The notes beneath the pieces were generated by a model that did no database searches, was not told where the DNA came from, and saw only the letters and a program-made list of their open reading frames with translations. The position numbers and the translations under genes were made by a program. 21,036 nucleotides of DNA from a virus, in the IMG/VR virus record IMGVR_UViG_3300044568_000623, positions 1 to 21,036 of that record. One strand, given 5' to 3'. This document shows, in pieces, positions 6,298-8,321 of the stretch. Positions within the stretch are counted from its first letter, which is position 1, and every line of letters starts with the position of its first letter.

Positions 6298-6627
6298 TTA
6301 TTCCCCTATCCCATGCTCGCCCAACCACGAGTCGTAGTCGAACTGCTTTTCTGCATCTGCCAACGCTTCGCCTTCAAGGTCTGGCATATCTTCGCTCCAT
6401 GTCTGCGTGGACTGATGTTTAATGCTGTTGAGTCTGTGTACAGATACTGGGGCTTGCCATTCAGGTAGCGGGGGCTTTGCCTTGAATAAAAACTCTTCTG
6501 GCTGATGCTTATGTTCGTTTACCGCATGGTTTACTTTGCGGTTTAGTTCTATTTCTCTTTCGATAATGGCATGTACCATGTGTCGAGGTACTTGTTGCTT
6601 GATGATGTGGTCTTTCAGTTTTGCCAT
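6298..6627 (-). CDS. Unknown 109-aa protein, first gene after promoter B
   Basis: The protein (MAKLKDHIIKQQVPRHMV...) has a basic helical N-terminal half and an acidic C-terminal half (DMPDLEGEALADAEKQFD). The ATG at 6627 has GGAGTGAATC upstream, an SD arrangement that recurs at other leftward genes here (9364, 8932). It lies about 90 bases downstream of promoter B, with hairpin E4 in the leader. No family is recognised. Confidence 0.75.
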   Translation of the reverse strand: MAKLKDHIIKQQVPRHMVHAIIEREIELNRKVNHAVNEHKHQPEEFLFKAKPPLPEWQAPVSVHRLNSIKHQSTQTWSEDMPDLEGEALADAEKQFDYDSWLGEHGIGE

Positions 6628-6654
6628 GATTCACTCCATAAAGGTTTATTGAAA

Positions 6655-6681
6655 TCCACGCAGTACGTGGACTGATATTTA
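6655..6681 (-). repeat. Hairpin repeat E4 in the promoter B leader
   Basis: The best copy of the family: TCCACG (6655-6660), loop CAGTA, CGTGGA (6666-6671), then CTGATATTTA. Perfect 6-bp arms. It lies between promoter B and the SD of the 109-aa gene. Confidence 0.6.
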
Positions 6682-6715: not shown

Positions 6716-6744
6716 ATTATACTATAAGTTGACATATACAGGAA
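6716..6744 (-). promoter_or_regulatory. Promoter B (leftward, sigma70-like)
   Basis: Minus strand: -35 TTCCTG (6739-6744), 17-base spacer, -10 TATAAT (6716-6721). Flanks and spacer match promoter A over about 60 bases. It lies at the left edge of the octamer-repeat region and should drive the 6627-3990 operon. Confidence 0.65.
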
Positions 6745-6817
6745 GAGGTTTAATTTACTATTTTTACGGGTTTTGTTCCGGCTGTTCGGGCAGAGTCAGA
6801 ACAGAAAAGGGTTGTTT

Positions 6818-6835
6818 TCCACCAGATCTGGTGGA
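6818..6835. promoter_or_regulatory. Perfect 18-bp palindrome
   Basis: TCCACCAGATCTGGTGGA is identical to its own reverse complement and lies inside the octamer array. It has the length and symmetry of a dimeric repressor or initiator site and is unlike the octamers themselves. With no loop it is unlikely to act as an RNA hairpin. Confidence 0.5.
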
Positions 6836-6921
6836 TTTTAGGGGTTTTGTTCCGGTTTTTTTGTGTTGCCAGAACAAGAACTTTTTGGTATGAATCGGGC
6901 TAAAAGCCGCATAAAATCTAG

Positions 6922-6963
6922 TCTTTATTAATAATAATAATTAAAAATATATATAATATTGTT
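6922..6963. other. AT-rich stretch, possible DNA-unwinding element
   Basis: About 40 bases almost entirely A and T (TTATTAATAATAATAATTAA and similar) flanked by octamer repeats on both sides. It could be a duplex-opening element; this is inferred from composition and context. Confidence 0.4.
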
Positions 6964-7214
6964 GTTCTGTTCCGGAAGAAAAAAGGTATATACCCCCCGC
7001 AGGTGTTTTTTCTTGCACTTGCCGAGCCGTTCGAACAATCTGCAAAAAACGCACGTTTCAGCCCATACCTCCTAAAAAGACCAGAACACTGGAACAAGCA
7101 GCTAAGTCCTTGATTTTAAAAGTAAAATCTTGTTCCGTTACCAGAACAACAACAGAATTACCGGAACAGAATTTAGCCCTGCTGCGTCATTTAAGAAAAA
7201 ATTAAATGATAGAA

Positions 7215-7242
7215 TCCACGCATGACATGGATTGATAATTAA
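7215..7242 (-). repeat. Hairpin repeat, copy E5
   Basis: TCCACG (7215-7220) and TGGA (7228-7231), then TTGATAATTAA. Same family as E4, but here it is not next to a gene start, which suggests that it may work at the DNA level. Confidence 0.45.
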
Positions 7243-7320
7243 GTGGCTGGGCGTAGGCAGGGCGTCGGCTGTTGTTCTCATGGCTGATGAGATTTCGTAA
7301 TTTACGCGGGCATACATACA

Positions 7321-7350
7321 CGCGCGCGACAATATATAACTGGTTTCAAT
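7321..7350. repeat. 30-bp dispersed repeat, copy 1
   Basis: Begins CGCGCGCGACAATA and continues to TGGTTTCAA. It matches 8417-8446 at 27 of 30 positions. Both copies lie just past a leftward terminator. Confidence 0.55.
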
Positions 7351-7360
7351 TTGTCTAGGC

Positions 7361-7390
7361 GAAAAAAAACCCTAGACCGTAGTCTAGGGC
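7361..7390 (-). terminator. Rho-independent terminator (leftward), twin 1
   Basis: Hairpin CCCTAGAC-CGTA-GTCTAGGG (7370-7389) with eight A on the plus strand to its left, so a U-tract follows the stem in leftward RNA. It ends the 56-aa gene and has the same hairpin as 7589-7608. Confidence 0.85.
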
Positions 7391-7396
7391 TGTGGG

Positions 7397-7567
7397 TTAT
7401 GGGTATCTTAATCCAGTGGCGGGATCAATTAAACCTGATACGTCACCGATAACGCCAATCCGATCAATTGCATTTTTGAATTCGACTAGCGTTAATATGC
7501 CGTTATAGTAATGCGTTACAGTTTCCTTAATGTATCCATCAATAGAATTCAAATCTTGTTGAATCAT
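7397..7567 (-). CDS. 56-aa unknown protein between twin terminators
   Basis: ATG at 7567 with AGGGG 6 bases upstream; the protein begins MIQQDLNSIDGYIKETV and ends GLRYP. It is soluble and probably helical in its first half. It is a complete reading frame with good ribosome-site spacing, enclosed by two identical terminator hairpins (7370-7389 and 7589-7608), so it is expressed either by leak-through or from a weak promoter I could not identify. No family is recognised. Confidence 0.65.
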   Translation of the reverse strand: MIQQDLNSIDGYIKETVTHYYNGILTLVEFKNAIDRIGVIGDVSGLIDPATGLRYP

Positions 7568-7580
7568 AATAATCCCCTAA

Positions 7581-7608
7581 GAAAAAAACCCTAGACCGTA
7601 GTCTAGGG
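7581..7608 (-). terminator. Rho-independent terminator (leftward), twin 2
   Basis: Same 20-base hairpin as twin 1 at 7589-7608, with seven A to its left on the plus strand. It lies 18 bases past the stop of the 211-aa gene. Confidence 0.85.
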
Positions 7609-7626
7609 TTGTGAGTTAAAACAATA

Positions 7627-8262
7627 TTACTGGATACGCTTTTTAATTACTTCGAAAAATGCGTCACGAGCTAAGCGGAAAGTTACCATGTCCGCATGTG
7701 GATCACCAGTTTGCTTACCATGTGTAACTTTCTTTTCTTGGTCTTTGAAGAAAGCTTGCCAAGCTTCGAACAAAGTTTTATTTGCCGCTCTAGCTTTTCT
7801 AGTAACACCTAAAATCGCTTTCTTGATGTCACTCTTGCGATTAGAACGATAGGTTGAAGCTTCATCACGCATTGTCTTAACTTGCGCTTTTAAACCTTTG
7901 TTCTCGATTTTGTTATATTCAACCGTAGTCATATTGATAGCATATGAATAGGTTAGAACGTGATGCCCTTCAGGTAAGGTTGTCTTATCTGATAGGTTAG
8001 CAAAATCGCCCGCACTGGTGATAATGTACGGCACTGCTTTGTGTGTCTCTGCAAAGTGTTGATTGTATCCAGAATCTAGCTCTGCTTCGAGTTCTTCATT
8101 TTTGTGTTTAGGTTGTGCAAAATCTTTGTCAATACTTTTGATATAAGCAGCAACCGATTTGATAACGCTAACACTTGCGTCAAACGCTTTTGATTGTTCA
8201 AGTGCTGCACTGCGAACGGATACTAGGTTAATGCTTTTTTCTACGATAGCTTTTTTTGCCAT
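7627..8262 (-). CDS. Unknown 211-aa protein under promoter C
   Basis: The protein starts MAKKAIVEKSINLVSVRS; I chose the ATG at 8262, with GGAGTG about 9 bases upstream, over an in-frame TTG at 8277 that overlaps that SD. It is soluble and helical, with many Lys residues and a C-terminal region (DAFFEVIKKRIQ) suggesting a packed helical bundle. It is the largest gene of this sub-cluster, has its own promoter (8322-8350) and is followed by a strong terminator, so it is a single-gene transcription unit and probably well expressed. No family is recognised; a nucleic-acid-binding role is possible but unsupported. Confidence 0.75.
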   Translation of the reverse strand: MAKKAIVEKSINLVSVRSAALEQSKAFDASVSVIKSVAAYIKSIDKDFAQPKHKNEELEAELDSGYNQHFAETHKAVPYIITSAGDFANLSDKTTLPEGHHVLTYSYAINMTTVEYNKIENKGLKAQVKTMRDEASTYRSNRKSDIKKAILGVTRKARAANKTLFEAWQAFFKDQEKKVTHGKQTGDPHADMVTFRLARDAFFEVIKKRIQ

Positions 8263-8321
8263 GATATTACACTCCAATTAAGTTAATAAAAATACGCGGT
8301 TTGTTACATCGCGTAAGACAT

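Follow-up and report, generated by a model that had tools for sequence, protein, structure and literature searches.

Conserved iteron array with a changing recognition word as a probable replication origin of tailed phages of ~60 kb

Whether a field of short repeated words in the non-coding DNA of a tailed phage serves the start of replication or the control of a neighbouring promoter is the question raised by the locus analysed here, which lies in a 21 kb virus record of a tailed phage (the window, meaning this whole stretch of 21,036 nucleotides). The window carries leftward early genes, including those for an AAA ATPase and a metallopeptidase/VWA protein, and rightward genes for terminase, portal and capsid, and its terminase is nearest to those of phages of ~60 kb, namely DSL-LC04 and the pelagiphages HTVC027P and HTVC023P. 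Related phages are likewise ~60 kb and mostly uncultivated. All seven exact copies of the octamer CCRGAACA found in the window fall within positions 6774-7168, as compared to a maximum of two in the densest 450 bp of the shuffled window (200 first-order shuffles). When up to one mismatch is allowed, 13 copies lie inside these 395 bp, and the remaining 23 one-mismatch matches are spread across the other 20.6 kb. The sequence-only reading had described an array of about eleven octamers; the array is real, and this number is replaced by the two counts given above. Its description of octamers in both orientations, several as inverted pairs, around some 40 bases of nearly pure A/T also holds, with inverted pairs at 6848/6869 and 7131/7141 in addition to the direct pairs B and C (Table 1). 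Such clustering of several copies of one short word at a single place in the genome is a feature of iteron origins. Among the open reading frames listed for the window, none of at least 60 aa with a conserved counterpart lies inside the array, and the sole one touching it (7138-7332, minus strand, 64 aa) overlaps only its end.

Table 1. Parts of the array and its flanks, in positions of the window
Feature	Position	Strand	Details
Leftward sigma-70-like promoter	6716-6744	-	-10 TATAAT at 6716-6721, weak -35 TTCCTG, conserved TATATGTCAACTTATAG spacer
Outer iteron set A	6774-6876		TGTTCCGG 6774, TGTTCGGG 6783, TCAGAACA 6796, TGTTCCGG 6848, CCAGAACA 6869
AT-rich core, putative unwinding element	6924-6963		39 of 40 bases A/T
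Iteron direct pair B	6963-6975	-	TGTTCTGTTCCGG, starts 5 bp apart (6963/6968)
Central spacer, pair B to pair C	6976-7080		B-to-C start distance 113 bp
Iteron direct pair C	7081-7096	+	CCAGAACA CTGGAACA, starts 8 bp apart (7081/7089)
IHF-consensus site	7103-7115	-	AATCAAGGACTTA
Outer iteron set E	7131-7168		TGTTCCGT 7131, CCAGAACA 7141, CCGGAACA 7161
Terminator-like hairpin	7363-7399	-	CCCTAGAC..GTCTAGGG; between array and right-hand gene; second copy 7582-7618
Right-hand neighbour gene	7627-8277	-	conserved all-alpha protein, function unassigned; often duplicated in relatives

Relatives were gathered via the AAA ATPase and via the terminase, and all 28 loci selected by terminase whose upstream DNA extends to 4 kb or more carry the array, located 2.0-4.8 kb before the terminase gene (3.3 kb in the window). 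A second set of relatives was picked by alignment of the primase-helicase described below, in order to avoid selecting loci by the array itself; here, each of the 13 records with a terminase match carries the array, with all four word types represented. The recognition word depends on the lineage and is CCRGAACA, TAGAACA, TGGAACA or TTGGAAT. Whole-genome counts in five long related genomes (G001-G004 and G007) revealed no second octamer cluster beyond two copies, nor does the window contain one. Octamer density elsewhere and conservation in relatives, the two checks that the sequence-only reading had proposed for itself, thus both come out in its favour. Rfam yielded no match, and a DNA-level search with the region found none in the phage collection.

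The order of parts, common to 35 arrays, is set A, the AT-rich core, the leftward pair B, the spacer, the rightward pair C and set E, and 15 further arrays exhibit the same build, a few of them with one site extra or missing. Across 48 arrays, most B-C distances fall into two groups, 111-114 and 121-127 bp. The AT-richest 40-mer sits 36-56 bp to the left of pair B in 32 of the 35 arrays, with a mean AT of 0.91 in the 20-bp bin at -40. A putative unwinding element, as predicted from base composition, lies beside the iterons. Set A of the window comprises two inverted pairs with starts 21-22 bp apart, and inverted pairs with starts 20-23 bp apart were also found in loci L010, L013, L014, L023 and L025. 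Starts within pair B are 5 bp apart in the CCRG type and 7-9 bp apart in nearly all other arrays. What is new here is the conserved, two-fold symmetric frame of the probable origin, combined with an ever-changing recognition word. Two further ideas about the geometry were rejected. Helical phasing of the B-C distances was given up, since the two peaks are 10 bp apart but show no optimum at 10.5 bp, in sequences that are related. The central spacer as a structured RNA or cruciform was also discarded: a B+C stem appears in the folds of most relatives and is broken in the CCRG type, including the window, because of the different spacings within B (5) and C (8), and the stem is probably a by-product of inverted iterons.

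Predicted sites for host proteins accompany the iterons. The perfect IHF consensus AATCAANNNNTTA occurs in 30 copies in 25 of 35 arrays, including that of the window, with a shuffle mean of 2.0 and a 34-fold enrichment, whereas 0.9 copies would be expected from its density elsewhere in the same loci (22 outside copies in 456 kb), counts which are to be read with the loci being related and hence not independent events. These sites are placed either in the gap between set A and the AT-rich core or in that between pair C and set E. Two letters in its middle, mostly AC, vary less than an IHF site would require, and another protein may therefore act there. Exact DnaA boxes (TTATCCACA) are located near nine of the 35 arrays; the window contains none. 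In two cultured phages, the Pseudomonas phage Rollin and the Rhizobium phage RHph_TM27A, which encode the same primase-DUF927 protein as the relatives of the window (see below), IHF-consensus sites were also found in AT-rich non-coding DNA, comprising the only two such sites of RHph_TM27A and one of the two of Rollin, where this stretch holds arrays of the repeats TATGCAA (8) and AAAAGGTA (9). DSL-LC04 (L103, 13450-13740) has an inverted repeat TTCCTATAG..ACACTCTCT around an IHF-consensus site and GCGCGCGCGA, which is possibly the counterpart of the array.

In its sequence features the array belongs with iteron origins, and it very probably serves a ~60-kb tailed phage as its replication origin, read by a phage initiator. 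A constant layout combined with a shifting word is what would be expected of an origin recognised by a rapidly evolving initiator. The iteron-origin interpretation already offered by the sequence-only reading gains support from the fixed AT-rich element, the IHF-consensus site, the DnaA boxes of some relatives and the SaPI-Rep-like helicase gene. In the proposed mechanism, octamers to either side of the AT-rich core would be bound by a phage initiator. Pairs B and C, divergent and a near-fixed distance apart, would seat two initiator assemblies in opposite orientations, with IHF bending the adjacent DNA, and melting of the AT-rich stretch that adjoins pair B would let helicase and primase load; protein binding, melting, the direction of replication and the identity of the initiator are what we infer. 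A bolder and more tentative extension is that bidirectional firing starts from two primase-MCM-like helicase assemblies positioned by the divergent pairs, and that initiator and word coevolve fast, giving at least four words within a single phage group on an unchanged frame. The GC skew was dropped as evidence for an origin, since it follows transcription and is uninformative: at third positions it shows no difference between the left and the right of the array (p = 0.79), and the cumulative skew reaches its minimum where transcription diverges, 3-4 kb further right.

As for the initiator, if the array is an origin, we lean towards the primase/DUF927 helicase fusion encoded in the leftward replication arm, which would act via a C-terminal winged-helix-like domain. 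The gene lies outside the 21 kb window and is known here from relatives: the long genomes G001 and G002 (both with terminal repeats) and G003 encode PolA, an SNF2-type helicase and a 951-aa primase-helicase, the latter encoded in ten of the 13 examined records. This protein combines a primase-like N-terminus with a helicase matching Pfam DUF927. Its sequence finds the SCCmec protein Cch (phmmer), and the top Foldseek matches of its AlphaFold model, which is weak (pLDDT 58) and has a C-terminal strand-helix-helix-strand-strand stretch among its better-modelled parts, are Cch and SaPIbov1 Rep, followed by PrimPol domains. Association of residues with the iteron type peaks in the last 100 residues (0.57 vs 0.45-0.51), which, with 24 related proteins and covariation confounded by phylogeny, is only a hint. 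SaPI Rep is known to recognise iterons with its C-terminal domain, and the DUF927-containing Cch is related to SaPIbov1 Rep (PMC7581432).

Comparison with known systems places the array close to several classes of origin. In PICI origins, an AT-rich region has a set of iterons on either side (PMC6092414). The phages resemble SaPI/PICI elements in the arrangement of short iterons as two sets around an AT-rich stretch, in an iteron sequence that differs between relatives, and in a DUF927/MCM-like helicase of the kind found in the SaPI/PICI rep-ori module, present here in the relatives. However, the SaPI origin is next to rep, directly 3' of it, whereas the array, at the start of the replication arm, is ~18 kb from the helicase gene in complete relatives, and because of this separation the array is not classed as a SaPI/PICI origin. 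Further differences are the fusion of the phage helicase to a primase, the mirror-image pairs B and C at 113/123 bp, and the carrier, which is a full phage genome and not a satellite. In phage P4, the alpha protein is a primase-helicase fusion and the origin has iterons near an AT-rich stretch, in both of which it resembles the present phages; however, the primase and helicase of alpha are of another kind, and P4 needs a second site (crr), while no second octamer cluster was found in the window or the five long genomes. Iteron plasmid origins (pSC101, P1, R6K) share with the array the iterons, the AT-rich element, IHF and sometimes DnaA sites, but their initiators are of the RepA/Pi type, not helicases, and no such gene was seen among the phage proteins searched. 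For most of the phages that are known only from metagenomes, the origin was never placed; here a probable one becomes placeable by sequence in dozens of related genomes. The changed recognition words offer a natural series for testing how a SaPI-Rep-like helicase recognises its origin. A link would also be drawn between free-living phages and the replication of satellites and cassette elements (SaPI, SCCmec).

The main competing explanation, also raised by the sequence-only reading, is that the octamers serve transcription and not replication, as an operator field through which a phage regulator controls the leftward early promoter bordering the array on the left. The position of this promoter speaks for it: in many relatives a leftward promoter with a better match, TTGACW-N17-TATAMT, abuts the array at the same edge, and the first early gene of the window starts at 6627. 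However, ~400 bp with at least ten sites on both sides of an AT core would be unusual for one promoter, which moreover has its own conserved TATATGTCAAGTTATG-like element, and the IHF-consensus sites and the constant B-C distance would be left unexplained. The word clusters at no other promoter, or anywhere else in the window and the five long genomes, and, among the proteins searched, none encoded beside the array showed a recognised DNA-binding domain. Origin function is favoured because it explains all parts together and the operator only the promoter; a pure operator field is improbable, although control of the adjoining promoter may be a secondary role. A role in packaging or segregation, as a cos/pac or centromere-like site recognised by the small terminase or a partition protein, is more improbable still. 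The array does lie ~3.3 kb before the terminase gene and is followed by a conserved GCGCGCGAC..ACTGGTNTCAAA stretch, but the proteins searched included no recognisable partition protein, two complete records have their terminal repeats, perhaps artefacts of assembly, at other places, and pac and cos sites do not, to our knowledge, require an AT core between two mirror-image iteron sets.

A variant of the preferred explanation, overlapping with it in confidence, keeps the array as an origin and assigns the initiator role to another early protein, such as the product of the right-hand gene, with the primase-helicase loaded afterwards. The gene stands beside 34 of 35 arrays and evolves fast. In addition, an initiator other than the primase-helicase would fit the pelagiphages HTVC023P and 023Pt_psg01, which possess smaller repeat arrays although the stretches searched revealed no DUF927 helicase. 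Against this, the right-hand protein, modelled as all-alpha with a pLDDT of 91.6, gave no match in a fold search, to a DNA-binding fold or otherwise, and belongs to no known family, and no homologue of its gene was found in Rollin, RHph_TM27A or the pelagiphage stretches. On balance we regard this variant as rather unlikely.

Several minor observations concern the pelagiphages and the flanks of the array. In 023Pt_psg01 (L105, 13575-13784) there are seven copies of TGGCACA, and in HTVC023P (L106, 11681-11960) several copies of CTAGGAAA, in both cases with direct pairs near AT-rich DNA; HTVC023P also contains TTTGTAGGGAAGAGTATTAG, which by eye resembles GTAAGGAGAAGTATTA of L041, L059 and L079. 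The literature on HTVC023P-type genomes does not mention iterons or an origin in the text searched. A second copy of the right-hand gene is located ~1 kb further right in many relatives (L019, L023, L053 and others). To the right of the array, at 7312-7352 of the window and in relatives, lies a conserved GCGCGCGAC..ATAACTGGTNTCAAA stretch, and in L059 a TCAGTTCTGAGAACGGTAGGCGATG-like element is found three times between the array and the right-hand gene, other loci having related ACCGTTTGCTTAA hairpins. On both flanks (6653-6681 and 7213-7241 in the window), and in similar places in relatives, there is a short hairpin with an A/T run after it; its stem varies between phages, the two copies within one phage being alike.
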